From: Zongyangia hominis
GTDB lineage: Bacteria > Bacillota > Clostridia > Oscillospirales > Ruminococcaceae
Direction: 5' to 3'
Length of the DNA stretch: 55,993 nt
Assembly (NCBI RefSeq): GCF_014385095.1
Contig: NZ_JACRTC010000010.1
Span: 1 to 55,993, forward strand
Shown: positions 2,437-40,205 of the stretch, piece by piece
How the letters are laid out: each line of letters begins with the position of its first letter
Position numbering within the stretch: the first letter of the stretch is position 1
Program-made: the position numbers and the translations under genes
Notes under the pieces: model-generated
Database searches by the model: none
The model's input: the letters and a program-made list of their open reading frames with translations, nothing else
Told to the model about the DNA's origin: nothing

Positions 2437-3201
2437 ATGGAAGAAAAGAAGGAAAATTGGGAGAAGCTCAGTGACACATTGGACATTTGTGTCACCGACG
2501 CCCATAAATTCGGCACCGACGCCTTTCTGCTGTCCCATTTTGCCGGGGCGAGACGGGTGGACCGGTGCGCCGACCTCGGCACCGGCTGCGGCATTGTGGC
2601 CCTCCTTTGGTACCGCCGGCGGGAGGAGGGGCCCCGTCACTGCACCTGTGTGGACATCCAGGAGCAGGCGGTCAAACAGCTTTGCCGCACGGTGGAGCGG
2701 GCGGGCCTTGGAGACAAAATCCGGCCCCTCTGCCGGGACCTGCGGGAGCTGGGGGATGAAATCGAGGCAGGTTCGCTGGACCTCATCACCTGCAACCCGC
2801 CCTATAAGACGCCGGGCACCGGCGTCATGAGCCGGGAGGTAAGCGACCAGATTGCCCGGCATGAGGTGATGTGCGGCTTGGACGAGCTGTGCGCGGCGGC
2901 GGAGCGCTATCTAAAATTTAGCGGCAGGCTTTGCCTCTGCCAGCGGCCGGAGCGGCTGTGCGACGTCATCTGCGCCATGCGGGACGCCGGCATCGAGCCC
3001 AAGCGTCTGCGCTTTGTCGTCCAGCGTCCCGGATGTCCGCCCTGGCTCTTCCTCATCGAGGGGAAGAAGGGGGCCAAGCCCTTTTTGCAGGTGGAGCGGG
3101 ACCTCATCATCGAGGGGCCGGGCGGCTTTTCGAGGGAGGTGCTGGACATTTATCACAAGAAGGAAAATAAGCCCCAAGGGGCCAAAGAAGCGGGGAAGTG
3201 A
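2437..3201 (+). CDS. TrmN6-like tRNA (adenine37-N6) methyltransferase
   Basis: A 254-residue SAM-dependent methyltransferase. Motif I is DLGTGCGIV (residues 46-54) and the N6-adenine catalytic motif NPPY is at 120-123. The N-terminal part (CVTDAHKFGTDAFLL) is characteristic of the YabB/TrmN6 family, which methylates A37 of tRNA1(Val). The reading frame overlaps rsmI by four bases (GTGA), and the yabB-rsmI(yabC) pairing is the conserved Firmicute order, which supports the call. The start follows GGGGAGG. The exact tRNA substrate in this organism is inferred from the family. Confidence 0.85.
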   Translation: MEEKKENWEKLSDTLDICVTDAHKFGTDAFLLSHFAGARRVDRCADLGTGCGIVALLWYRRREEGPRHCTCVDIQEQAVKQLCRTVERAGLGDKIRPLCRDLRELGDEIEAGSLDLITCNPPYKTPGTGVMSREVSDQIARHEVMCGLDELCAAAERYLKFSGRLCLCQRPERLCDVICAMRDAGIEPKRLRFVVQRPGCPPWLFLIEGKKGAKPFLQVERDLIIEGPGGFSREVLDIYHKKENKPQGAKEAGK

Positions 3202-4061
3202 ATCAGTTGAACGAACAGGGAACGCTTTTCCTGGTGGGAACGCCCATCGGGAATTTATCGGATATGACACCCCGGGCCGTGCGGACGTTGGAAGAAGTGG
3301 ACTTCATTGCGGCGGAGGACACCCGGGTCACCCTGAAGCTCCTCAACCATTACGGCATCAAAAAGCCCATGGTCAGCTATTTTGAGCACAATATCCGGGA
3401 GCGGGGGCAATATATCGCCGACCGCATCGCCGCTGGGGAGAACTGCGCCATTGTAACCGATGCGGGAATGCCCTGCATCAGCGACCCCGGGGAAGATTTG
3501 GTGCGCATCTGCGGGGAGCGGGGCATTCCGACCGTGGTGGTGCCCGGCCCCAGCGCCGTGGTGTCGGCGGTGGCTCTTTCGGGCCTCGCCACCTCCCGGT
3601 TTACCTTCGAGGGCTTTCTCAGTGTCAGCCGCAACCAGCGCTTGGCACATCTGCAGGAGCTCGAGGGAGAGCGCAGAACCATGGTGTTTTACGAAGCGCC
3701 TCATAAGCTCTTAAACACGCTGCGGGACATGGCGGAAGCCTTCGGCGGGGAGCGGAGAATCGCTCTGTGCCGGGAGCTGACCAAAATCCACGAGGAGGTC
3801 ATCCGCACCACCTTGGATGAGGCATGGAGGCTTTTTACCGAGCGTCCTCCCAAGGGAGAGTTTGTGCTGGTCATTGAGGGCCGGGGCGAGGAAGAAGAGG
3901 AGCAGATCAGCCTGGAAGAGGCGGTGGAGCAGGTCAAGGAAAAGGCGGCGGCTGGGAAATCTCTGTCAGAGGCCGCTAAGGAGGTGGCAAAGGCCACCCA
4001 TTATAAAAAAAGCGAGCTCTACAAAGCTGCCGCCACCTGCGGTGGAGCAAGTCGCGATTAG
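3198..4061 (+). CDS. rsmI: 16S rRNA C1402 2'-O-methyltransferase RsmI
   Basis: A 287-residue protein of the tetrapyrrole-methylase fold. The N-terminus has GTPIGNLSDMTPRA (about 13-26), then EDTRVT and GMPCISDPG, all diagnostic of RsmI, which 2'-O-methylates C1402 of 16S rRNA. The C-terminal region has the usual small helical tail. The GTG start overlaps the stop of the upstream methyltransferase, so the two are translationally coupled. A TTG three codons downstream is an alternative start. Confidence 0.95.
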   Translation: MNQLNEQGTLFLVGTPIGNLSDMTPRAVRTLEEVDFIAAEDTRVTLKLLNHYGIKKPMVSYFEHNIRERGQYIADRIAAGENCAIVTDAGMPCISDPGEDLVRICGERGIPTVVVPGPSAVVSAVALSGLATSRFTFEGFLSVSRNQRLAHLQELEGERRTMVFYEAPHKLLNTLRDMAEAFGGERRIALCRELTKIHEEVIRTTLDEAWRLFTERPPKGEFVLVIEGRGEEEEEQISLEEAVEQVKEKAAAGKSLSEAAKEVAKATHYKKSELYKAAATCGGASRD

Positions 4062-4262
4062 GCTCATTCGCAACGTAGTAACGCGGGCGACGCGGCAAAG
4101 ATGCGAATAAGATATGGGGCGCGGTCCCCGCCACGGTAGGAGCCGCTGACCCACCGCGCTGTGGTATCGTACGAGAAAATAACGCGTGAGACGCGGCACC
4201 TGCCGGTGAGGACATCGCGCTGTGGTGTCATTTGAGAAGGTATGGCGGGCCACGCAGCAGAG
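4062..4262. repeat. Degenerate mosaic repeat element
   Basis: A GC-rich non-coding stretch containing fragments of the window's repeat family: ACGCGGGCGACGCGGC, ACCTGCCGGTGAGGA and CGCGCTGTGGT blocks occurring twice each in altered form. No gene is seen. It separates rsmI from the QueG-like gene. Confidence 0.6.
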
Positions 4263-4289
4263 GATCTCAAGAGGGAAGGGAGGAGCGGC

Positions 4290-5605: not shown

Positions 5606-6065
5606 GGACACTGCATCAACAGGCGGCGGAAGGTTGCCATTGTTGGCTTGGTCGTGGTTCTCTTTGTGGGCCGGCGGTGGGAGCGCTTGTCTTGGCGAAC
5701 GCGCCCTCAACGCGGGCAAAGCGCCTTCTCAAAAAAGGAACCAGGCGCGTGACTTCCCGCGCCGGTAGGGACCGCGACGTCCCCCACCGGTAGGTGGCGA
5801 AGCCGCTTGTTCCAGCGAACGCGCCCTCAACGCGGGGAAAGAGGCTTTCTCAAAAGAGGAACCGGGCGCGCGACACCCCCCACCGGTAGGTGGCCGCGAC
5901 TTCCCCCGGCGGCAGCCGGTAGGTGGCGAAGCCGCTTGTCCCGGCAAACGCGCCCCCAACGCGGGCCAAGCGACCTGCTCAAAAGAGGAACCGGGCGCGC
6001 GACATCCCGCCCCGGTAGGGACCGCGACGTCCCCCGGCGACAGCCGGCAGGTGGCGGGAACGGGA
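5606..6065. repeat. Mosaic repeat array, about 110-190 bp units
   Basis: A GC-rich non-coding stretch with at least three imperfect copies of a unit running GGCGAAGCCGCTTGTCC...AACGCGCCC(T/C)CAACGCGGG...CTCAAAAGAGGAACCGGGCGCGCGAC, separated by small palindromes of the CACCGGTAGGTGG type. The reverse complement of this unit resembles the repeat that is translated inside the decarboxylase gene (8926-9390). No coding signal is seen. Confidence 0.85.
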
Positions 6066-7342: not shown

Positions 7343-7858
7343 ATGCAGTTACATACCAGCCGTTTGCGGATCCAACCGCTGACCATGGAGGAGTTTCGCC
7401 TCCTGCTGGAAGGGACGGCACAGGTGGAGGCGGCGCTGGGCCTCTCACCCGCGGGCAGGGAGCTGGACCCCCACACCAAGGAGGCCATGAAGGCCCTGTA
7501 TGCCGAAGCTGTCCGCAATGAAGATAATTACCAATGGTATACTAATTGGATGATCATACGAAATGTAGATAATGTGGCCGTGGGAAGCGCCTGTTTCATG
7601 GGCCGGCCCGATCGGGACGGATCGGTGGAACTGGGCTATGGGCTCGAAGAAAGCTATTGGGGCCAGGGCTATATGACCGAGGCGGCCCGGGCCCTGTGCG
7701 ACTGGGCGTTATCGCAGCCGGGGGTGCGCCGGGTGACGGCCGAGACCGAACGGGGCAATCTCGCCTCCCAGCGGGTGCTGCAAAACTGCGGCATGCAGCT
7801 TTATCGGGCCACGGAAGAGGGCCTTTTCTGGAAGCGGGAGAAGGAGGCGAGCGTATGA
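7343..7858 (+). CDS. GNAT-family N-acetyltransferase
   Basis: A 171-residue acetyltransferase of the RimJ/RimL type: N-terminal SRLRIQPLT, central ELGYGLEESYWGQGYMTEAARALCDWAL (acetyl-CoA loop around WGQGYMTEA, residues about 111-119) and TERGNLASQRVLQNCGM. The family acetylates amino termini or small molecules; the substrate is unknown. The start follows AAGGAGG. The stop overlaps the decarboxylase start (ATGA), so the two are translationally coupled. Confidence 0.88.
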   Translation: MQLHTSRLRIQPLTMEEFRLLLEGTAQVEAALGLSPAGRELDPHTKEAMKALYAEAVRNEDNYQWYTNWMIIRNVDNVAVGSACFMGRPDRDGSVELGYGLEESYWGQGYMTEAARALCDWALSQPGVRRVTAETERGNLASQRVLQNCGMQLYRATEEGLFWKREKEASV

Positions 7859-9651
7859 CCACGCCCATCCGCCGGATGCTGGACGCCTATCTGGCCGAGG
7901 GAAAGGCCCGGATGCACATGCCCGGGCACAAGGGCATCCTGCCCCCGCCGCTGGGTGATGCGGCGGCCTATGACATCACCGAGGTGCAAGGCGCGGACAG
8001 CCTATTTGAATGCGACGGGGTCATCCGGGCCTGCGAGGAGGGCTTTGCCGCCCTCTATGGGGCCAAGGAGAGTCTTCTCTCCTGCGGCGGCTCGACGCTC
8101 TGCATCCAGGCCATGCTGGCGCTCGCCGCCCATCCGGGGGAGAAAATCCTCTTTTTCCGCAACATCCATCGGGCGGCCCTCAACGCCATGATTTTACTGG
8201 ATATCCGTCCGGTCTGGATTTACCCGGAGGGGGATGCGGAAGGCTTTGGCAGGGCGGAGCCCTATCAGGTCAGAGAGATGCTGGAAGCCCACCCGGACAT
8301 CCGGGGGGTATATCTCACCTCCCCCGACTACTACGGCGGCATGCACGATATCGCCGCCATCGCCAAAATCTGCCACGCGTTTGACGTGCCCCTTCTGGTG
8401 GACAACGCCCACGGCGCTCACCTTCGGTTTTTAGAGCGGGACCGGCACCCCATCTCCCTGGGCGCGGATCTGTGCTGTGATTCTCTCCACAAGACCCTCC
8501 CGGCCCTCACCGGAAGCGCCATCCTCCATATCGGCGCCGACCGCTTTTCCCGGGACGCGGCCAAGGAGGCCATGGGCCTCTTCGGCTCCACCAGTCCCAG
8601 CTATCTCATGATGCTTTCCATGGATATGCTCCTCTCCGACCCCGCAAGACTGACGGAGGAGATCCGCCGGACCGTGGGCCAGTGCGAGCGCGTCCGGGCG
8701 CTCCTGCGCTACCGGGGCTATGCGGTCCTGGACGGGGACCCCATGAAGCTCACCTTCCGCCGCCCCGGCCGCACGGGGCTTGAGACCGCGGCACTACTGC
8801 GGGAAGCGGGCATTGAGCCCGAATTTGCCGACGGGAAATGGGTGGTGCTCATGCCCTCCATGAACACCCCCGACGAGGATTTCATCCGCCTCACCCGCCA
8901 CCTAGCGGTGGGGCAAGACGCGCCGGCTGCCGCCGGGGGATGCCGCGCTCTTGGTTCCGTTTGTAACGACGTCGCTGTGCCCGCGTCGGAGGTATCTTCG
9001 CGGGAGCAGGCGCCCTTCCAGACGGCTGCCGCCGGGGGATGTCGCGCCCCTGGCTCCGTTTGCAGTGAGGCCGCTGTTCCCGCGTCGGAGGTATCTTCGC
9101 AGGAGCAGGCGCCCTTCCAGACGGCTGCCGCCGGGGGATGCCGCGCCCCTGGCTCCGTTTGCAGTGAGGCCGCTGAGCCCACGTCGGAGGTATCTTTGCA
9201 GGAGCAGGCGCCCTTCCAGACGGCTGCCGCCGGGGGATGCCGCGCCTGTGGCTCTGTTTGCAGTGAGGCCGCCGTGCCCGCGTCGGAGGTATCTTTGCGG
9301 GAGCAGGCGCCCTTCCAGACGGCTGCCGCCGGGGGATGTCGCGCCCCTGGCTCCATTTGCGGAGAGGCCGCTGTGCCCACGTCAGGAATGCTGGAGCGTG
9401 GGGAAAGCGCTTCCTTGGCGACCGAGCCTCCGCACGGCATGGCGGCGGACACTGTCCGCCCGCCCAGGGAGGCATATTTCGCGCCGAGTGAACATATCCA
9501 TACCGTAGACGCCGAGGGCCGGATTTACGCGGATATCCGCTGGCCCTGCCCACCGGCCATTCCCATCATCCTGCCGGGGGAAAGAATCGACAAAAAAGTG
9601 TGTGAAATTTTCTTAGCATCTGGAAAAACCGTCATAAAAGTGGTACAATAA
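7855..9651 (+). CDS. Orn/Lys/Arg decarboxylase with in-frame repeat insertion
   Basis: A 598-residue fold-type I PLP enzyme of the YaaO/SpeA family, acting on a basic amino acid. MPGHKG (about 22-27), VDNAHGAHL and the PLP lysine in SLHKTLPALTGS (K213) are intact. Between the large domain (ends near residue 353) and the C-terminal domain (EGRIYADIRWPCPPAIPIILPGE...) lies a stretch of about 180 residues containing five near-identical 33-residue units (starting at 358, 391, 424, 457, 490), encoded by 99-bp DNA repeats related to the intergenic family. Relatives are usually about 470-490 residues. The start at 7855 overlaps the GNAT stop; an upstream in-frame ATG at 7657 lies inside the GNAT gene. 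Activity with the insertion is unproven. Confidence 0.88.
   Translation: MTTPIRRMLDAYLAEGKARMHMPGHKGILPPPLGDAAAYDITEVQGADSLFECDGVIRACEEGFAALYGAKESLLSCGGSTLCIQAMLALAAHPGEKILFFRNIHRAALNAMILLDIRPVWIYPEGDAEGFGRAEPYQVREMLEAHPDIRGVYLTSPDYYGGMHDIAAIAKICHAFDVPLLVDNAHGAHLRFLERDRHPISLGADLCCDSLHKTLPALTGSAILHIGADRFSRDAAKEAMGLFGSTSPSYLMMLSMDMLLSDPARLTEEIRRTVGQCERVRALLRYRGYAVLDGDPMKLTFRRPGRTGLETAALLREAGIEPEFADGKWVVLMPSMNTPDEDFIRLTRHLAVGQDAPAAAGGCRALGSVCNDVAVPASEVSSREQAPFQTAAAGGCRAPGSVCSEAAVPASEVSSQEQAPFQTAAAGGCRAPGSVCSEAAEPTSEVSLQEQAPFQTAAAGGCRACGSVCSEAAVPASEVSLREQAPFQTAAAGGCRAPGSICGEAAVPTSGMLERGESASLATEPPHGMAADTVRPPREAYFAPSEHIHTVDAEGRIYADIRWPCPPAIPIILPGERIDKKVCEIFLASGKTVIKVVQ
8926..9390. repeat. 99-bp tandem repeat inside the decarboxylase gene
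   Basis: Four full 99-bp copies and a shortened fifth, starting at 8926, 9025, 9124, 9223 and 9322. Each is 33 codons, so the frame is kept. The palindrome GGCGGACACTGTCCGCC, shared with the intergenic arrays, follows at 9444-9460. The reverse complement resembles the unit at 5606-6065. Confidence 0.93.
9641..9649 (+). promoter_or_regulatory. Extended -10 promoter for darA-holB-ricT
   Basis: TGG followed by TACAAT (9644-9649), at the very end of the decarboxylase gene. A poor -35 (TGGAAA) lies 17 bp upstream. It could give the downstream cluster its own transcription. Confidence 0.4.
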
Positions 9652-17520: not shown

Positions 17521-18060
17521 ATGAATATGACGAGCAAAAAAACGCGCGCTGTGGTGGAAGGCGCGCTGATTGCCGCGCTCTATGCGGCTCTCAGTATCGC
17601 GCTTGCCCCCATCAGCTTCGGCCAGGTGCAGGTCCGGGTATCGGAGGCCCTGACCCTGCTTCCCCTCTTTACTCCCAACGCCATTTGGGGCGTTACCATC
17701 GGCTGTGTGTTATCCAACACCATCGGCATGTTTATGGGCGTCAATATCCTGGGCTTTCTGGACATTATCTTTGGCAGCCTTGCCACCCTGCTGGCGGCGC
17801 TCATTACGAGAAAGCTCAAAAAGCCCGCGATCAAGGGACTCCCGATTCTGGCGCCGCTGCCGCCGGTGCTGCTCAATGCTGTTGTGGTGGGAGCGGAGCT
17901 TACCTTCGTGACCGTCAACCACTTTGACGCCAGGGTATTCCTTCTCAACGCCGCTTATGTGGGCCTTGGACAGCTGCTTGCCTGCTATGTGCTGGGCCTC
18001 ATGTTAGTCTGGCTGCTCCAAAGGGGGAACCTGAGCGATAAACTCTTTTTTGCCAAGTAA
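17521..18060 (+). CDS. queT: Queuosine-precursor ECF transporter substrate protein QueT
   Basis: A 179-residue integral membrane protein with about six hydrophobic segments. RAVVEGALIAALYAALSIALAPISFGQVQVRVSEALTLLP is the QueT-family N-terminus (ECF S-component for preQ1 or related deazaguanines, working with the shared EcfAAT energising module). The start is fixed by the riboswitch-embedded AAAGGA site. An upstream in-frame ATG at 17338 would swallow the aptamer and is rejected. It is monocistronic with its own terminator. Confidence 0.92.
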   Translation: MNMTSKKTRAVVEGALIAALYAALSIALAPISFGQVQVRVSEALTLLPLFTPNAIWGVTIGCVLSNTIGMFMGVNILGFLDIIFGSLATLLAALITRKLKKPAIKGLPILAPLPPVLLNAVVVGAELTFVTVNHFDARVFLLNAAYVGLGQLLACYVLGLMLVWLLQRGNLSDKLFFAK

Positions 18061-18065
18061 AATTG

Positions 18066-18097
18066 AAAGGCGGGCCCAAGGAAGGGCCCGCCTTTTT
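18066..18097 (+). terminator. Terminator after queT
   Basis: AAAGGCGGGCCC/GGGCCCGCCTTT perfect hairpin with TTTTT. Confidence 0.92.
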
Positions 18098-18099
18098 CG

Positions 18100-18325
18100 C
18101 ACCTACCGGCGGTGCTTTCGGCCGGCAGGACGCGACTTGGGCACTATGCAAGCCACCGCCGCGTCGCACGCGCTTCGGCTGCGCCGTGCCACAGCGCGAT
18201 ATGGGCCGCGGCAGGAAGCGATCTGGAACTGTTCAAATCACCGCCGCGTCGCACGCGCTACGGTTGCGTCGGAGTCACAGCGCGATATGGGAGCGGACAC
18301 TGTCCGCCCGCAGGTGGTGGATTTT
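18100..18325. repeat. Mosaic repeat, two units
   Basis: Begins with CACCTACCGGCGGTG, then two copies of CACCGCCGCGTCGCACGCGCT(T/A)CGG... and CACAGCGCGATATGGG; ends with the palindrome GCGGACACTGTCCGC (18293-18307). It abuts the -10 box of the next gene. No coding signal. Confidence 0.87.
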
Positions 18326-18336
18326 GGGACGATTTG

Positions 18337-18345
18337 TGTTATAAT
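18337..18345 (+). promoter_or_regulatory. Extended -10 promoter next to the repeat
   Basis: TGT then TATAAT (18340-18345). The -35 position falls on the repeat edge (about TGGTGG) and is poor. Confidence 0.6.
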
Positions 18346-18406
18346 AATACCGAGTGCTAAAACCAGGACCGCCGAGGGCGGCGTGATGATAAAGGATGTG
18401 AATGTG

Positions 18407-18985
18407 ATGCGTTTTTCCATCTCCCGAGCGGACCACCTGCCTGATCTGGACTCTATGCCGGTGATGAAGGTGCTCCGGTATCCGCTGGAGCCGGCCGACT
18501 TTAAACCCTTCGCCCAGGCGAGAATGTGCTACCTCACAGACAAGGGGCTGTATCTGATGATGTGGTCTTTTGAAGTGAACCCCATCTGCAATGGCAATGA
18601 CAACGACAGCTTTCTGATCTTTAAACTCCGCATTGAGGGCGGGAAGGAAATCTGTGTCAAGGTCAATCAAAACGGCTTGTACAGTTTTACCGTGGACGGC
18701 GGTGTCCGCCAGGTCAGCGACATCGGGTGCAAAATGTTCACTGGCGAGGATTTGCAGGGGATTTATTGGGGCTGCGAGCTCTTTTTCACCAATTCTTTAA
18801 TAAAATCCATCGATGGCGTCACCAATCTTCTTCCCGAGCATAGGATAGAAGGGAATATCTTCAAGACCTGTGAAGACCCAACGTTTCGTCATCACGGATG
18901 CCTGTTTTGTAGCGAAGAGCAGGCAAAAAGCTTTGATCCCAAGGCCCTGTCCAACTTGGGCCGGTTTGAGATCGTGGATTATTAA
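18407..18985 (+). CDS. Hypothetical protein, possible CBM9-like fold
   Basis: A 192-residue soluble protein with no signal peptide. The layout (a mostly beta sequence with ARMCYLTDKGLYLMMWSFEVNP, then KLRIEGGKEICVKVNQNGLYSF, and IYWGCELFFTNSLI) is reminiscent of carbohydrate-binding family 9-like proteins common in gut Clostridia, but I cannot confirm it. AAAGGA (18391-18396) favours ATG 18407 over ATG 18386. A reading frame open back to 18050 crosses the repeat and the promoter and is not real. Confidence 0.7.
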   Translation: MRFSISRADHLPDLDSMPVMKVLRYPLEPADFKPFAQARMCYLTDKGLYLMMWSFEVNPICNGNDNDSFLIFKLRIEGGKEICVKVNQNGLYSFTVDGGVRQVSDIGCKMFTGEDLQGIYWGCELFFTNSLIKSIDGVTNLLPEHRIEGNIFKTCEDPTFRHHGCLFCSEEQAKSFDPKALSNLGRFEIVDY

Positions 18986-23739: not shown

Positions 23740-24005
23740 CTCATTGATATCACCGCCTGCCGGCGGGGGATGACGCGGCACCTACCGGTGCGGGATGACG
23801 CGCATTTGGTTTGCTCCGCAACATCGCCGCGACACCCGCGTTGCAGCCGCGTACGCGTCACAGCGCGATATGGGGGCGGCACCTACCGGCGGGGGATGAC
23901 GCGCATTTGGTTTGCTTCGCGCCACCGCCGCGTCACTCGCGTTGCAGCCGCGTACGCGTCACAGCGCGACAACCTCCACCGGCAGGTGGAAAAGGGATGC
24001 CTCCC
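23740..24005. repeat. Mosaic repeat, two units
   Basis: Two copies of GATGACGCGCATTTGGTTTGCT(C/T)CGC...CGCCGCG(A/T)CAC(C/T)CGCGTTGCAGCCGCGTACGCGTCACAGCGCGA..., bounded by CACCTACCGG(T/C)G and CACCGGCAGGTGG palindromes. It lies between the 5' end of the GH13 gene and the 3' end of glgP. No gene is seen. Confidence 0.88.
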
Positions 24006-27375: not shown

Positions 27376-27845
27376 GCGGCAAGCCGCCGTTGGAGGAGAT
27401 CGCACTGTAGCCCGGTTTTCGCCTGAACACGGGTGACGCGGCAATGGCTTATGCCGGACCCAGGTCGCGTCATGCTGACCGCAGGGCGGCAAGGTGCCGC
27501 TCCCAAATCGCGCCGTGGATACGTTCGCGGCTGAAGCGCGGGTGGCGCGGCGGTGGCTTCTACAAAACCCAGACCGTGTCATGCCGACCGCAGGGCGGCA
27601 AGGTGCCGCTCCCAAATCGCGCCGTGGATACGTTCGCGGCTGAAGCGCGGGTGGCGCGGCGGTGGCTTCTACAAAACCCAGACCGTGTCATGCCGACCGC
27701 AGGGCGGCAAGGTGCCGCTCCCAAATCGCGCCGTGGATACGTTCGTAACAATAACGCGGGTGACGCGGCAGTGGATTGGACGAAACTCAGACCGTGTCAT
27801 GCCGACCGCAGGTCCGCGTGATCCCCCACCGGCAGGTGGGGAAAA
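27376..27845. repeat. 109-bp tandem repeat array
   Basis: Exact 109-bp spacing of the GACCGCAGG block (27477, 27586, 27695, 27804). The middle copies are almost identical. Each unit holds the palindrome GGCGGCAAGGTGCCGC, then CTCCCAAATCGCGCCGTGGATACG, CGCGGGTGGCGCGGCGGTGG and a variable TCTACAAAACCCAGACCGTG. The last copy ends in CCCCACCGGCAGGTGGGG just before the U32 gene's ribosome-binding site. Confidence 0.95.
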
Positions 27846-27856
27846 AGGAGAGTATT

Positions 27857-29929
27857 TTGCAAAAACCTGAAATTCTCGCGCCCGCCGGGGGGATGGAGTC
27901 GCTGGAAGCGGCCATTTACACCGGCGCGGACGCGGTCTATCTGGGCGCCGGGGACTTTAATGCCCGGAGAAACGCCCAAAACTTCGACGAACAGGCCCTG
28001 TGTGCGGCTGTGCGGCTGGCACACCGATACGGGGCTAAAATTTACATGACCGTCAACACCGCCGTGTTCGACGACGAGATGGACGCCCTACTCGCCACCC
28101 TTGCGCTTGGCTGTGGGGCGGGCGTAGACGAAATCATCGCCGCCGACCTGGGGGTGTATGCCCTTTTGCGCCGGTGCGCGCCCGGCATGAAGGTCAGCGC
28201 CTCCACCCAGATGAGCGTCCACAACCTGCCCGGCGTGCGGCTTTTGGAGGAGTTGGGCTACGACCGGGTGGTTCTCTCCCGGGAGCTGAGCCGGGAGGAG
28301 ATTGAGCGCATCACTAGCCGGGCGGGCATCGAAATTGAGGTGTTCGTCCATGGGGCGCTGTGCATGTGCGTCTCGGGCCAGTGTTACCTATCCTCCCTCA
28401 TCGGGGGCCGCAGTGGCAACCGGGGCCTGTGCGCCCAGCCCTGCCGCTTGGACACCCGCGTTCCTGATGGGGAGCCCTATGCCCTCTCCCTCAAGGACCT
28501 GTCCCTGGTGGAGCGGGCGGGGGAGCTGGCCGAGCTGGGGGTCAAGAGTCTCAAAATCGAGGGCCGGATGAAGCGGCCCGAATACGTGGCCGCCTCGGTG
28601 GGGGCCCTGCGCCAGATCCTCGACGAGGGGACGGCTTCCCCTTCGTCCCTGGAGGCCCTTCAGTCGGTCTTTTCCCGCAGCGGCTTTACATCCGGCTATT
28701 TTGACGCTCGCTTGGGTCCGGAAATGTTCGGCACCCGGCAGAAGGAGGACGTCACCGCCGCCGCCGGGGTGCTGGGAGCATTGCAAAAGGAATACGCCCA
28801 CCCCACCCAGCGGATACCGGTGGGGATGGAGGTCACCGTGCGCCAAGGGGAACCGGTTTCCCTGCGGGCCTGGGACCAGGACCGACATGAGGCGGCGGTC
28901 CACGGGGACAACCCGGAGCTTGCCCAGCGCCGCCCTACCGACGAGGCCCTCTGCCGTCGGGCCATGGAAAAGACGGGGGGCACCCCCTTTTTCTTGGAGG
29001 AACTGACGCTTTTAACCGACGGGGTCAGCATGGCGCCGGTGTCCGAACTCAACCGCCTGCGCCGGGAGGCGCTGGACGCCCTGGGGGAGGAGCGGGGCCG
29101 GGTCTCGCCGGTACCGTTTACCCCCTGCGAAGTTTTGTCCGGCGCGCCTTACCGGCCCCGGAAGCCGCTTCGCTGGCGCGCCCGGTTCGACCGGGTGGAG
29201 CAGGCGCCCATGGATCAGCTGGACCTTTTTGAAGCGGTCATCCTGCCGGCAGGGGAGCTTTGCCGCCATTGGGAGGCGTTTCCCAGCGGGAAGCGGGATA
29301 AGCTCTGGGCGGAAGTGCCCCGGGCCGTTTTCTCCCGGGAGGAGGAAGTGGCCGATATCCTGCGGACGCTCAGGGAAAAGGGCTGCGCCCGGGCGGTGTG
29401 CGGCAATTTGGGGGCGGTACAGATGGCCCGGGACGCGGGACTTGCCGTGTCAGGGGACTTTGGCCTCAACATCGTCAACACCCCGGCCCTGGATGTGCTC
29501 GAAAATTTGGGGCTTTCCGACGTGACGCTGTCCTTTGAGCTCACCTTACAGCGGGCAAAGAGGTTGGAGGGAAATGTGCCCCGGGGTATGCTCTGCTACG
29601 GCTATCTGCCGCTGATGCTCACCCGCAACTGCGTACTCAAAAACCGTCTCGGCTGCCAAAAGTGCGGCCGGGCGTTTCACCCCCTCACCGACCGGACAGG
29701 CCGGGCCTTCCACGCCGCGTGTGAGGAGGAAAAAGAGAGCATGGTGCTCTATAACGCCTATCCTCTTTGGATGGCCGAGCGGATGGAGGAAATGGAGGGC
29801 ATCGACTTCGCCACCTTCTATTTTACCCGGGAAAGCCGGGAGGAAGCGGCCCAGGTATTGGAAGACTACAAGGCCGGACGGGGCCGGGACAACATCACCC
29901 GGGGCCTCTATTACCGGAAGATACAATAG
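27857..29929 (+). CDS. Peptidase U32 family protein
   Basis: A 690-residue U32 protein with DUF3656-type and C-terminal extensions. KPEILAPAGGMESLEAAIYTGADAVYLG opens the U32 domain, and the signature EVFVHGALCMCVSGQCYLSS...GNRGLCAQPCR is complete. The C-terminal Cys set (CYGYLPLMLTRNC...GCQKCGR) may hold an Fe-S cluster. Characterised relatives (RlhA, TrhP) hydroxylate rRNA or tRNA pyrimidines; others are annotated as collagenases. The TTG start is supported by GGAG seven bases upstream. The repeat array lies directly before and after the gene. Confidence 0.88.
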   Translation: MQKPEILAPAGGMESLEAAIYTGADAVYLGAGDFNARRNAQNFDEQALCAAVRLAHRYGAKIYMTVNTAVFDDEMDALLATLALGCGAGVDEIIAADLGVYALLRRCAPGMKVSASTQMSVHNLPGVRLLEELGYDRVVLSRELSREEIERITSRAGIEIEVFVHGALCMCVSGQCYLSSLIGGRSGNRGLCAQPCRLDTRVPDGEPYALSLKDLSLVERAGELAELGVKSLKIEGRMKRPEYVAASVGALRQILDEGTASPSSLEALQSVFSRSGFTSGYFDARLGPEMFGTRQKEDVTAAAGVLGALQKEYAHPTQRIPVGMEVTVRQGEPVSLRAWDQDRHEAAVHGDNPELAQRRPTDEALCRRAMEKTGGTPFFLEELTLLTDGVSMAPVSELNRLRREALDALGEERGRVSPVPFTPCEVLSGAPYRPRKPLRWRARFDRVEQAPMDQLDLFEAVILPAGELCRHWEAFPSGKRDKLWAEVPRAVFSREEEVADILRTLREKGCARAVCGNLGAVQMARDAGLAVSGDFGLNIVNTPALDVLENLGLSDVTLSFELTLQRAKRLEGNVPRGMLCYGYLPLMLTRNCVLKNRLGCQKCGRAFHPLTDRTGRAFHAACEEEKESMVLYNAYPLWMAERMEEMEGIDFATFYFTRESREEAAQVLEDYKAGRGRDNITRGLYYRKIQ

Positions 29930-30513
29930 GCGGACAGTGTCCGCTCCCTCGTCGCGCTGAGATGCGTTCGCGACTGTAGCGCGAGTCACGCGGCAGTGAT
30001 CTGAACGGGACCGAGGTCCGCGTCATCCCCCGCCGGCAGGCGGTAGGCGGACAGTGTCCGCTCCCTCGTCGCGCTGAGATGCGTTCGCGGTCGTAGCGCG
30101 AGTCACGCGGCAGTGGTTTGTATGGAATCCAGGTCCGCGACATCCCCCGCCGGCAGGCGGTAGGCGGACAATGTCCGCTCCCTCGTCGCGCTGAGATGTG
30201 TTCGCGACCGTAGCGCGAGTCACGCGGCAGCGGTTTAAACGGGACCGAGGTCCGCGTCATCCCCCGCCGGCAGGCGGTGGGCGGACAGTGTCCGCTCCCA
30301 TATCGCGCTGAGATGCGTTCGCGGCCGTAGCGCGGGTAACGCGGCAGCGGTCTGAACGGGACCCAGGTGCGCGTCATCCTCCGCCGGCAGGCGGTGGGCG
30401 GACGGTGTCCGCTCCCATATCGCGCTGAGATGTGTTCGCGGCCGCAGCGCGAGTCACGCGGCAGTGGTTTGTATGGAATCCAGGTGCGCGTCATCCCCCG
30501 CCGGCAGGCGGAA
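29929..30513. repeat. 117-bp tandem repeat array, five copies
   Basis: Copies start at 29929, 30046, 30163, 30280 and 30397, spaced exactly 117 bp. Each runs GGCGGACAGTGTCCGC, TCCC(T/A)...TCGCGCTGAGATG, CGTTCGCG, GTAGCGCGAGTCACGCGGCAG, and CATCCCCCGCCGGCAGGCGG. The first copy overlaps the TAG stop of the U32 gene and the last ends 25 bp before dut. Confidence 0.97.
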
Positions 30514-30537
30514 TAACGATAAAGGAGTTGGGCGATT

Positions 30538-31006: not shown

Positions 31007-31276
31007 ATGAAGTGGAAGAAGAACCTGCTGCTCATTTTGTTTTTGGTGGGCGGTATCGTCATCGGCTCCCTGCTCGCCGCAGCCTGCAAGGATGTCCCCT
31101 TTTTGTCCTGGCTGGGATTTTCCCAGTCCATCGGCATCTCGTCCCAGGCCCCGCTGGTGGTGGACCTGAGCGTCTTTTCCCTGGCTTTCGGACTGTCCGC
31201 CAATATCACGGTCGCCCACATCCTCTGCCTCATTCTGTCCGTGTTCGGCTACAAAGCGGCGGCCAAGCGCTTCTAG
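31007..31276 (+). CDS. DUF4321 membrane protein
   Basis: An 89-residue protein with two hydrophobic helices (about 6-26 and 59-83) and the GGIVIGSLLAAACKDVPFLSWLGFSQSIGI and VDLSVFSLAFGLSANI elements typical of DUF4321. In Clostridia this gene commonly sits beside maf and mreB, as here. The function is unknown; the location suggests a link with cell-envelope growth. AAAGGAAGA precedes the ATG. Confidence 0.87.
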   Translation: MKWKKNLLLILFLVGGIVIGSLLAAACKDVPFLSWLGFSQSIGISSQAPLVVDLSVFSLAFGLSANITVAHILCLILSVFGYKAAAKRF

Positions 31277-31277
31277 G

Positions 31278-31712
31278 TCCCTACCGGGACGGGATGGCGC
31301 ACGTTGGGGCTTTGCCTAAACCACCGCCGCGTCACCCGCGCGCCTGCCGGCGAGGATACCGCGGGCTAGGTCCCGTTCAGGCCACTGCCGCGTCCCTCGC
31401 GTTGCCGCCGCGAACGTATCACAGCGCGACGTGGGTGCGGCACCTTGCCGCCCGCGCGCCTGCCGGCGAGGATACCGCGGCCTGGGCCTTGTTTAGGCCA
31501 CTGTCGCGTCGCCCGCGTTGCCGCCGGGAACGTATCACAGCGCGGCGTGGGAGCGGACACTGTCCGCCCGCGCGCCTGCCGGCGAGGATACCGCGGCCTA
31601 GGTCCCGTTCAGGCCACCGCCGCGTCACCCGCGCAGCCGCAAGGAACGAGCTCAAGCGCGATATGGGGGCGGCACCTTGCCGCCGCGATATGGGAGCGGC
31701 ACCTTGCCGCAG
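31278..31712. repeat. 116-bp tandem repeat array, inverted orientation
   Basis: CGCCTGCCGGCGAGGATACCGCG blocks at 31341, 31457 and 31573 (116-bp spacing) give three units and a partial first one. Orientation is opposite to the arrays at 27376 and 29929. The palindromic core varies from unit to unit: GCGGCACCTTGCCGC (31434, 31671, 31695) or GCGGACACTGTCCGC (31553). It ends 15 bp before the maf start. Confidence 0.95.
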
Positions 31713-35477: not shown

Positions 35478-36089
35478 TCCGCCTACCGCCAGCTACCGCT
35501 GGGGGATATTGCGCCCGAAGTTTGATTCGCAACGTTGCCGAGTCATTCGCGGACCTGCGGTCGGCAAGCTGCGCCCGAAGTTTGATTCGCAACGTCGCCG
35601 CGTCGCCCACGCGCCCAGATTGCCGGCGCATTACAGCGCGATGTGTCAGCGCCAGCTACCGTTGGGGGATATCGAGCCCGAAGTTTGATTCGCAACATTG
35701 CCGCGTCGCCCACGCGCCCAGATTGCCGACACATTACAGCGCGATGTGTCAGCGCCAGCTACCGCTGGGGGATATTGCGCCCGAAGTTTGATTCGCAACG
35801 TTGCCGAGTCATTCGCGGACCTGCGGTCGGCAAGCCGCGCCCGAAGTTTGATTCGCAACATCGCCGCGTCACTCGCGCCCAGATTGCCGACGCATTACAG
35901 CGCGATGTGTCAGCGCCAGCTACCGCTGGGGGACACCGCGCCCGAAGTTTTGTTTGTAACATTGTCGCGTCACCCACGCGCCTGCGGCGGGCAGGACGTG
36001 CCCGAAGTTTTATTTGTAACACTGTCGCGTCGCCCACGCTTGGGTCTCGGACGATCCACAGCGCGATAACCCCCACCGGCAGGTGGGAA
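35478..36089. repeat. Mosaic repeat array with 60/103-bp alternation
   Basis: The GCGCCCGAAGTTTGATTCG block occurs at about 35511, 35571, 35674, 35777, 35837, 35938 and 35998, so spacings alternate 60, 103, 103, 60, 101, 60. Two interleaved unit types are seen, one with GAGTCATTCGCGGACCTGCGGTCGGCAAG, the other with CGCCCAGATTGCCG...CATTACAGCGCGATGTGTCAGCGCCAGCTACCGCTGGGGG. It ends in CCCCCACCGGCAGGTGGG beside the PBP2 ribosome-binding site, inside the mre operon. Confidence 0.94.
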
Positions 36090-36101
36090 GGAGGATTTGC
36101 C

Positions 36102-38192
36102 ATGAAAATATCGAAAGTGGGCGTCAGGACCGCCGTGTTGGCAGTCCTCGTCCTGATTGTCTTTGTCCTGTTCGGCGTGCGGCTGATGCAGCTGCAGATC
36201 GTGGAGGGAAAGGACTACCTGGCCCTGGCTGAAAAAGGGGACATCAAAACCCAGACCATTATGGCGGCACGGGGCGAAATTGTGGACCGCAATATGGAAC
36301 CCCTGGCCAAAAACCGGGTGGGCTACGACATTGTACTGGATAAGGTCTTCATGACCAAAGACATGGAAAACCAGGTTATTCTGCGCCTGGTGGACATCCT
36401 CAAAGCCAACAACGAGCCGTGGATTGACAATCTCCCCATCACCATGGAGGAACCGTTCCAGTTTATGGAGGGGCGGGAGGATGACGTGGCCAAGCTCAAG
36501 GAGACTTTGGGACTCCAGAACTGGGCCACCCTGGAAAACGTCATGGACGCCATGGTGGAGGAATACAAAATTGAGGGGCTTGACCCGGTCCAGACCCGGA
36601 TTATCGCGGGCGTGCGCTATGAGATGGTGGACAAGGGCTACTCCATCGAAAACCCCTATACCTTCGCAAGCGACGTCTCCATGGACACGGTGGCCAAGGT
36701 TAAGGAGAATAACCTGGACCTGCCCGGCGCCGACGTCTACGAGACCCCCATCCGGGAATATGTCAACGGTACGGTGGCGCCCCATATCGTGGGCCAGATC
36801 GGCCCCATTTATAAAGAAGAATATGCCGAGCTCAAGGATAAGGGGTATCTCCTCAACGACACCGTGGGCAAAAGCGGCATTGAACAATATTTTGAAAGCT
36901 ATCTCCGGGGTGAAAACGGCACCCGGGACATCACGCTTAACAACAAGGGCATCGTCTCCAATGTGGAAACCACCAAAGCCCCCAAGGCGGGGAACACGGT
37001 GGTACTCACCATCGACAGCGAATTGCAGAAGGTGGCAGCCAAGGCGCTGGAGGATGAGATCAAGCTCCTCAACGCCACGGCCAAGGAGGGCGAGGGCAAG
37101 GAGGCCAACGCCGGCGTGGTGGTGGCCGTCGACACCCGCACCGGAGAAATCCTGGCGGCGGTCAATTACCCGTCCTTTGACCTGTCCACCTACCGGCAAA
37201 ATTATAACACCCTGTCCCAGGACCCGCTGCGCCCCCTCTTTAACCGGGCCTTTGAGGGTACCTACACCCCCGGCTCCATCTTTAAACCCTGCGTGGCCAC
37301 GGCGGCGCTGACCGAGGGGATCATTACCCCCGAGTCCACCGTCCAGTGTTCGGGCACCTATCTGTACTATGCGCCCAGCTACACTCCGGGCTGCCTGGGC
37401 GTCCACGGACAGACCACCGTCTTTAAAGCCCTGATGCGCTCCTGCAACATCTTCTTTTACGATGTGGGACGCCGCACCGGCATTGAAAACATTGCCAAAT
37501 ACGCCAAGGCCCTGGGGCTGGGCGTCCCCACCGGCGTGGAAATCGGTGAGGCCAAGGGCGTGGTGGCAAGCCGGGAGTATCGCGAAAACGTCATGGGCGA
37601 GCAGTGGCATCCCGGCGACGTCATCCAGGCCTCCATAGGCCAGTCGGACAACAAGTTCTCCCCTTTGCAGCTAGCCAATTACGTCTGCACCATCGCCAAC
37701 AAGGGCAAACGGAAGAACCTGCACATTGTCAAGGAAATACGCTCCTATAACCAGGACCAGGTGGTGGAAACCTTCTCCAACGAGGTGGTGGAAACCGTCT
37801 CCACCCCCGCGGTCTTCGACACCGTCATCGAGGGTATGAGACTGGCGGCCAGCCCCCAGGGCACCTCTGTCCACGTCTTCGACAACTACCCCTACACCGT
37901 GGCGGCTAAGACCGGCACCCCGGAGACCAAAGAGTTCCCCAACTCCACCTACATCTGTTTCGCGCCGGTGGAGGACCCCCAGATCGCCATTGTGGTGGTC
38001 ATTGAAAAGGGCTGGCACGGCTATACTGGCGCTCCGGTGGCCAAAAAGGTCTTTGACCAGTACTTCTTCGGCTCCACCCAGACCGGGGAAAGCGGGGACA
38101 GCTCGTCGGCGAGTTCCGCCGCCTCCCAGGCATCGGGCACGGCCACAACGCCGACCTCCTCCACGGACAGCTCCGCCAGCAGCCCAGAATAA
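36102..38192 (+). CDS. mrdA: Penicillin-binding protein 2 (elongation transpeptidase)
   Basis: A 696-residue class B PBP. It has an N-terminal membrane helix (about 8-28), a long PBP dimerisation/pedestal domain, and a transpeptidase domain with SIFK (S392-K395), SCN (second motif) and KTG (K603). The C-terminal 35 residues are a Ser/Thr/Ala-rich tail. It cross-links peptidoglycan during elongation with MreBCD. GGAAGGAGG directly before the ATG (adjoining the repeat palindrome) sets the start; an open frame from 35643 lies in the repeat. Confidence 0.94.
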   Translation: MKISKVGVRTAVLAVLVLIVFVLFGVRLMQLQIVEGKDYLALAEKGDIKTQTIMAARGEIVDRNMEPLAKNRVGYDIVLDKVFMTKDMENQVILRLVDILKANNEPWIDNLPITMEEPFQFMEGREDDVAKLKETLGLQNWATLENVMDAMVEEYKIEGLDPVQTRIIAGVRYEMVDKGYSIENPYTFASDVSMDTVAKVKENNLDLPGADVYETPIREYVNGTVAPHIVGQIGPIYKEEYAELKDKGYLLNDTVGKSGIEQYFESYLRGENGTRDITLNNKGIVSNVETTKAPKAGNTVVLTIDSELQKVAAKALEDEIKLLNATAKEGEGKEANAGVVVAVDTRTGEILAAVNYPSFDLSTYRQNYNTLSQDPLRPLFNRAFEGTYTPGSIFKPCVATAALTEGIITPESTVQCSGTYLYYAPSYTPGCLGVHGQTTVFKALMRSCNIFFYDVGRRTGIENIAKYAKALGLGVPTGVEIGEAKGVVASREYRENVMGEQWHPGDVIQASIGQSDNKFSPLQLANYVCTIANKGKRKNLHIVKEIRSYNQDQVVETFSNEVVETVSTPAVFDTVIEGMRLAASPQGTSVHVFDNYPYTVAAKTGTPETKEFPNSTYICFAPVEDPQIAIVVVIEKGWHGYTGAPVAKKVFDQYFFGSTQTGESGDSSSASSAASQASGTATTPTSSTDSSASSPE

Positions 38193-39937: not shown

Positions 39938-39944
39938 TGGGCAG

Positions 39945-40205
39945 TGCCCATCCCCAAGCCGCGCTGCGGCGCGACGGCAACCCAAACGCGTGCAACGCGG
40001 CGGTGTAGCAAAGTAAACTTTAGGGCGAGGCACGCTGACCGCAGGTCCGCGACAACCCCCGCCGTGCGGACAGTGTCCGCCGCCGTACCGCGTTGTAGTG
40101 CGTTCGTACCCTGAGCGCGGGCAACGCGACAATGTTGTGATGAAAACTTTAGGGCGCGACATGCTGACCGCAGGTCCGCGACAACCCCCGCCGGTAGGCG
40201 GTGAA
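39945..40205. repeat. Mosaic repeat between T-box and hisS
   Basis: Two units: AACGCG(T)GCAACGCGGCGG...AAACTTTAGGGCGAGGCACGCTGACCGCAGGTCCGCGACAACCCCCGCC, the palindrome GCGGACAGTGTCCGC (40066-40080), then a second copy ending ATGCTGACCGCAGGTCCGCGACAACCCCCGCCGGTAGGCGG. The repeat adds about 260 nt between the regulated terminator and hisS. Confidence 0.9.

Follow-up and report, generated by a model that had tools for sequence, protein, structure and literature searches.

REP/BIME palindromes are intergenic, hairpin-forming and clustered in arrays. Rickettsia palindromic elements (RPEs) are small palindromic repeats of ~150 bp; of the 44 copies in R. conorii, almost half sit in open reading frames as translational fusions (reviewed in PMC10969869). 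The enterobacterial repeats RU-1, RU-2 and RU-3 (103–168 bp) are intergenic and are fused in frame to annotated genes, the fusions lying at C-terminal regions and none being reported within conserved domains of superfamily proteins (PMC2759123). Small repeats have thus been captured in frame before.

We analysed a window of 55,993 nucleotides (the whole stretch of Zongyangia hominis DNA under study), in which a repeat-derived block of ~185 codons (8912–9465, plus strand) lies within an Orn/Lys/Arg decarboxylase-family gene (7855–9651, plus strand). Like RPEs, the block is a small palindromic repeat inserted in frame within a gene, here a single one. Whereas a large share of RPE copies is intragenic, only one of 66 clusters is so here, the bacterium is a different one and the insert is tandemly multiplied; the two are compared by description. 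In-frame fusion is common to the block and to RU-1, RU-2 and RU-3 as they are described, but the block has a conserved domain on either side, of which the downstream one has been retained. The repeat family is also intergenic, hairpin-forming and arrayed in the manner of REP/BIME palindromes, although its units are longer.

What appears to be new is the repeat family, set apart from RPEs by description, its tandem growth inside a gene and the site between two conserved domains. The locus is a clear example of a non-coding repeat that has entered a conserved enzyme between two domains and multiplied with the frame kept. As the window also holds the non-coding source family and the insert is missing from a syntenic relative, it provides a usable test of the origin of protein segments from repeats in bacteria, because the peptide, its likely origin and the insert-free state can all be named. 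The family is abundant in its lineage, and no earlier description of it was found in the open-access literature searched.

A decarboxylase gene with a tandemly repeated insert

The decarboxylase gene is open from an ATG at 7855 to a stop codon ending at 9651 and encodes 598 amino acids. Pfam and the alignment of relatives place the PLP (major) domain part in residues 1–352 (7855–8910, plus strand) and the C-terminal domain at 9466–9651 (plus strand). PF01276 (OKR_DC_1 major domain) matches residues 3–258 at 123.9 bits (cut-off 27), and PF03711 (C-terminal domain) matches residues 545–584 at 25.9 bits (cut-off 24.2), both above threshold. Residues S210, H212 and K213 are invariant in 15 aligned sequences and form an SxHK motif, which we take to be the lysine motif for the cofactor in Orn/Lys/Arg decarboxylases. 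The closest solved structure, PDB 2x3l (query residues 2–335, E 1.5e-29), is presumably an Orn/Lys/Arg decarboxylase family protein from S. aureus; its chain of 446 amino acids has the usual length and no such block, in contrast to the 598 residues found here. Downstream follow a DarA-like gene, a holB-like gene and ricT. The DarA-like gene, for a c-di-AMP receptor, matches PF06153 with a score near but below the NCBIfam DarA cut-off, and the best match of the holB-like gene is below its own NCBIfam cut-off. Gene order is presumably similar in Bacillus, with the decarboxylase-like yaaO. Between the FemAB gene and the decarboxylase lies a GNAT acetyltransferase gene (7343–7858), for which tblastn gave no match in the 9.7-kb syntenic locus (L001) of Candidatus Pararuminococcus gallinarum.

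Purifying selection is alike on both flanks of the block, with dN/dS against L001 of 0.27 on the N-terminal side and 0.25 on the C-terminal side, the latter from only ~61 codons. Given this similar constraint, the downstream domain is seemingly still in use, which would require read-through of the block; the claim of the preliminary description that both the frame and the downstream conserved domain are preserved is borne out.

Tandem Repeats Finder (TRF) delimits the repeat at 8924–9383, with a period of 99, 4.6 copies, 91% matches and 0% indels. Unit starts are at 8924, 9023, 9122, 9221 and 9320, in agreement with the five tandem 99-bp units first described between the PLP and C-terminal domains, except that the fifth is partial. 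Unit 1 (8924–9022, plus strand), together with the preceding base, keeps the whole 5′ hairpin CCGGC-TGCC-GCCGG (8923–8936). Units 2–4 (9023–9319, plus strand) are 99 bp or 33 codons each and singly match the repeat models weakly. Unit 5 diverges after ~9383 into an 82-bp tail, and the last unit (9316–9461, plus strand) is a full-length match to the repeat model (positions 1–118 of 118) that includes the 3′ terminal hairpin. This hairpin is the palindrome GGCGGACACTGTCCGCC (9444–9460, plus strand), translated within AADTVRPP; the block has a single copy of it, at the end, where it had been said to close the block as a sequence shared with the intergenic repeats. Its 15-base core, with C or G as the middle base, recurs at 18293, 29930, 30047, 30281, 31553 and 40066. 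The block peptide includes the predicted tryptic fragment APGSVCSEAAVPASEVSSQEQAPFQTAAAGGCR.

The block belongs to an interspersed repeat family

Other members of the family, mostly intergenic, are spread over the window. The nearest related array (5606–6065, minus strand, TRF period 129) lies between a CBS-domain gene and the FemAB gene, in reverse orientation to the block. Also on the minus strand are an array of period 109 between ZapA-like and U32 peptidase genes (27399–27842), a five-unit array of period 117 (29927–30514; TRF, array comparison and HMM), copies between genes at 39938–40204 (array comparison, HMM and covariance model) and further copies at 4028–4279, one of which enters the last codons of an RsmI-family gene ending at 4061. 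The plus strand holds copies at 18096–18311 that either precede the real start of the frame 18050–18985 or lie at its beginning, copies between genes at 23750–23990 (array comparison, HMM and covariance model), an array of period 116 at 31276–31710 (TRF, array comparison and HMM) and an array upstream of a penicillin-binding protein gene (35479–36089).

With the block itself masked in the window, a BLASTN search using it as query gave a reverse-complement match to 5892–6008 (117 bp, 69%, E 9e-8), and shorter matches to the other arrays. None of 300 shuffles of unit 2, and none of 300 shuffles of the tail, reached the real score, so the proposed resemblance between the reverse complement of the block and the 5606 array is real, and similarity to the intergenic arrays is evident in a proper alignment. 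A profile HMM built from 15 units, with the block and the 5606 and 35440 arrays excluded, recovered the last unit at 9323–9458 (E 8.9e-6, model positions 8–115 of 115) and the first at 8924–8986 (63 bp, E 2.4e-5, model positions 5–67), with E 0.03–0.3 for units 2–4 taken singly. The last unit scored 20.6 bits against 4.0 for the best shuffle and the first 19.3 against 4.9, neither score being reached in 1,000 shuffles; in the window with arrays masked the best match was 3.8 bits. A covariance model of 33 units from the window and the related genome, with block units left out, matched 9316–9461 at full length (E 3.7e-7) and 8923–9015 (E 1.1e-4).

In a comparison of nine blocks array against array, each matched several others, though some pairs were unmatched. 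Orientation separates 5606, 27423, 29927 and 39930 from the decarboxylase block, 18110, 23740, 31300 and 35440, and the stronger strand of the block fits these sets in all eight of its comparisons, that with 27423 being weak. For 5606 paired with 35440, the better of the short matches falls on the strand opposite to that predicted by the sets (34.6 versus 31.9 bits). The nearest kin of the block within the window is the array at 5606–6065. Together, these comparisons support placing the decarboxylase block and the intergenic arrays in one repeat family.

Typical units of the family are ~115 bp long. Their 5′ hairpin frequently has TRCC or TRGC as its loop, and their 3′ hairpin follows the pattern GCGG-NN-ACT-NN-CCGC. 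In the 3′ hairpin 96.7% of cells are paired, double-sided changes occur in 26 cells versus 9.4 in shuffles, and the covariation score was reached by none of 500 shuffles. Of 132 unit starts, a count that includes the block and a few duplicates, 129 have a 5′ stem of at least four pairs, versus 64% of shuffles; a stem of at least five pairs occurs in 53% versus 30%, and at six pairs or more there is no difference. The variety of stems around a similar loop weakly suggests a 5′ hairpin. Folding of whole units as RNA was not clearly better than for shuffles (z −0.08 to −1.63, five sequences), so only the terminal hairpin is supported, and RNAalifold folds 33 units into another structure, in which covariation is weak. 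The 5′ arm of the 3′ hairpin (GCGG) is also complementary to a conserved internal YCGC (alignment A2, columns 57–60 with 108–111), so that two exclusive folds are possible. At the Rfam gathering threshold the repeats were unmatched, the window yielding only 5S rRNA and tRNA; viral contigs gave no match to one 18-base repeat pattern, and phage records none to the array at 29900–30520.

Gene capture appears rare

We counted a cluster as gene-spanned where at least 60 codons are open on each side, a test that fusions at gene ends could escape. Ten clusters were found in the window at E ≤ 0.05, and the decarboxylase block alone passes. Gene calls were made on the flanks of the other nine. The clusters at 18100, 27399 and 35492 overlap the beginnings of mechanically extended frames; for the latter two the real starts are taken to be downstream of the repeats, which fits the Pfam domains beginning only at residues 115 and 206 of the frames 27776–29929 and 35643–38192. 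In the P. gallinarum genome (G001, a metagenome-assembled genome, MAG), 223 kb and 55 kb were examined, most of it sequence around matches and chosen as repeat-bearing. These yielded 50 and 7 clusters, or 56 in all because one is in both counts, and none was found spanned by a gene. With one in 10 clusters in the window and none in 56 in G001, gene capture looks rare and no habit of the element.

In G001 a few clusters or single hits do lie in open frames, where they are antisense, upstream of the start or without a Pfam domain above cut-off. A candidate second in-frame capture (L200, 15229–15588, in a 714-codon frame) was rejected: the frame has no Pfam match and is antisense to the end of a triosephosphate isomerase gene and to a phosphoglycerate mutase gene. 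Among single hits, 20 of 184 have at least 60 open codons on both sides, in 12 frames. Scanning eleven of these frames gave no Pfam match above cut-off and one below it (E 0.01); the twelfth (L211) spans two genes on the opposite strand. A further hit, at L210, precedes the likely start of a polysaccharide-synthesis gene.

The repeats and the insert in relatives

P. gallinarum is the nearest named record, and its genome holds at least 139 repeat matches (150 of 936 candidates scored). Under stricter filters it was the only one of 197 genomes in the family sample with matches, and the 29927 array used as a DNA query matched in one of 14 genomes. The exact 15-base palindrome occurs seven times in the window and once each in 3 of 297 family genomes, G001 not among them. 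As far as sampled, the repeat family appears specific to this lineage. A search of G001 for the RAYT-type Y1 transposase (Y1_Tnp, PF01797) found none among three candidates scored, in a MAG that may be incomplete. The G001 contigs C12, C26, C56 and C121 hold dense repeat clusters and several contig ends lie in repeats; this bin could be a mixture or be fragmented at repeats.

Gene order is common to the window and L001 (RsmI-like, QueG-like, CBS, array, FemAB, decarboxylase, DarA-like, holB), and L001 carries repeats of the same family in the same CBS–FemAB spacer. The block is absent from its decarboxylase gene. It is likewise absent from all 14 relatives aligned, as the comparison with close relatives proposed at the outset was meant to establish, and these relatives have no unrelated conserved domain at that place. 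The nearest protein (P0002) is 79–80% identical and has 455 amino acids, and among the matches listed (of 7,687 hits) homologue length is 420–468 amino acids in 119 of 119. The estimate of about 180 added residues holds for the block itself, at ~185 codons, but overstates the net gain, which is 143 amino acids relative to the 455-residue protein and 150 relative to relatives of 448, because relatives already have a short linker at the same place. Residues 350–545 used as a query found no protein other than the decarboxylase itself at E ≤ 0.01 (7,992 candidates), and the block-bearing protein was found on one contig only. Absence from the relatives compared supports gain of the block in this lineage.

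The ends of the repeat units carry hairpins. No target duplication, a trait of MITEs, was seen at the decarboxylase insertion; in the main domain the closest relative for which DNA is available has an identity of only ~70%, and at that distance the empty site is not alignable base by base and not close enough to show one. Apparently long decarboxylase frames in G275, G059, G282, G168 and G031 proved to have merely extra upstream codons in the stop-to-stop frame. A decarboxylase-family member in G062 (L118, G062:C29:8200-10300) carries a different in-frame repetitive insert of ~75–80 residues in which PQT recurs; the insert is unrelated to the block and occupies another loop, ahead of the DPMKLTFR-homologous segment.

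The block as protein

AlphaFold2 with 15 sequences gave a mean pLDDT of 61.1 and a pTM of 0.65, the domains on either side of the block being mostly confident. Residues 354–533 are below pLDDT 50 and predicted disordered, with pLDDT 23–31 and no secondary structure over residues 361–530; residues 16–52 are also below 50. On these predictions, non-coding repeat DNA probably became a disordered protein linker between two domains.

The preliminary description set the 99-bp period, as a multiple of three, against the periods of the intergenic arrays and took it as a sign of selection for frame. The contrast is wrong for two arrays (117 = 3 × 39, and 129 = 3 × 43 for the 5606 array), and the argument for selection fails with it, as pN/pS is not frame-specific either. 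Match lengths of 84 other units fall over all residues modulo three, 21 of the 84 being divisible by three, and these units are stop-free in an average of 2.15 of six frames.

Origin of the block

We favour, with a probability of roughly 0.8, the reading that an intergenic repeat inserted in the interdomain linker of the decarboxylase, grew tandemly and is read in frame, the insert being tolerated. A hairpin-ended, ~115-bp interspersed repeat, of a kind that in this lineage lies mostly outside genes, would have entered the linker as a largely stop-free copy whose net length change kept the frame, and a 99-bp segment of it would then have been tandemly duplicated to ~4.6 units, a number to be taken with the proviso that tandem arrays can be miscounted in short-read assemblies. 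We infer as product a single protein in which a 185-residue low-complexity, predicted disordered stretch joins two ancestral domains; continuing purifying selection on both domains suggests that the insert is tolerated.

That the peptide is instead kept for a function (as a spacer, an oligomer contact or a segment of tunable length), with frame and unit number under selection, strikes us as unlikely, though it is the strongest competitor to simple tolerance. It would account for the zero indels among units, for a period of 99 where the aligned stretch of the 5606 array is spaced at 103 (a 4-base gap), and for all five units being open in the coding frame, with Cys at a codon that is TGA in 16 of 33 other units. 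Yet each 99-bp stretch is open in five of six frames and the whole block in four, beyond the coding frame, and a founder effect suffices for the Cys codon: two units of the 5606 array share it, within a similar peptide GCRAPGS..E in the homologous frame, and one of them reads GCRAPGSSFEQVAWPALGARLPGQA where the block has GCRAPGSVCSEAAVPASEVSSQEQA, so the founder copy was probably already open. The pN/pS of 0.54 among units 1–4 in the coding frame fits a function, but the other five frames span 0.30–2.6. The block uses untypical codons, with a codon score in the coding frame of −0.15, versus +0.41 for the upstream part, which belonged to the training set, and +0.05 downstream; the search with its peptide, which returned only the decarboxylase, also speaks against a function. 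By these measures, selection on the block itself is not clearly evident. An extension of the functional idea, in which intergenic repeats form a stock of preformed linker DNA, often free of stop codons, and captured copies grow or shrink by 33-codon steps, giving the decarboxylase a tunable, strain-variable interdomain tether that alters assembly or activity, would be more speculative still, and we rate it as improbable.

Two further explanations seem very improbable to us. Ordinary low-complexity expansion of a linker, its likeness to the intergenic repeats being convergence of GC-rich sequence, draws on the short linkers at the same place in close relatives (Pro/Ala-rich in P0002) and on the G062 protein with its different repetitive insert in another loop; it is already disfavoured by the independent HMM and covariance-model matches, their shuffle controls, the consistent orientation and the terminal hairpins kept in the block. 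Misjoining of an intergenic array into the gene during assembly is hardly more credible: assemblers err at repeats, and in the related MAG roughly twelve contigs have this repeat at an end, but the five units differ from one another, no array in the window closely matches them (best 69% over 117 bp), the reading frame and the domain beyond the block are preserved exactly, and on both sides the synteny with L001 continues.

Other contacts between repeats and genes

In the RsmI-family gene (3198–4061) a repeat copy overlaps the 3′ end at 4031–4061, and the last nine residues are unaligned to the L001 protein; the repeat copy may supply the C-terminal tail and stop codon. The repeats at 18100–18306 are stop-free in all three plus-strand frames and fall within the first third of the 311-codon frame 18050–18985, which has no Pfam match; an N-terminal repeat fusion is possible there, from a putative start. 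The U32 peptidase gene (27776–29929) and the 117-bp array share positions 29927–29929, which are the stop codon of the gene and the first bases of the array.
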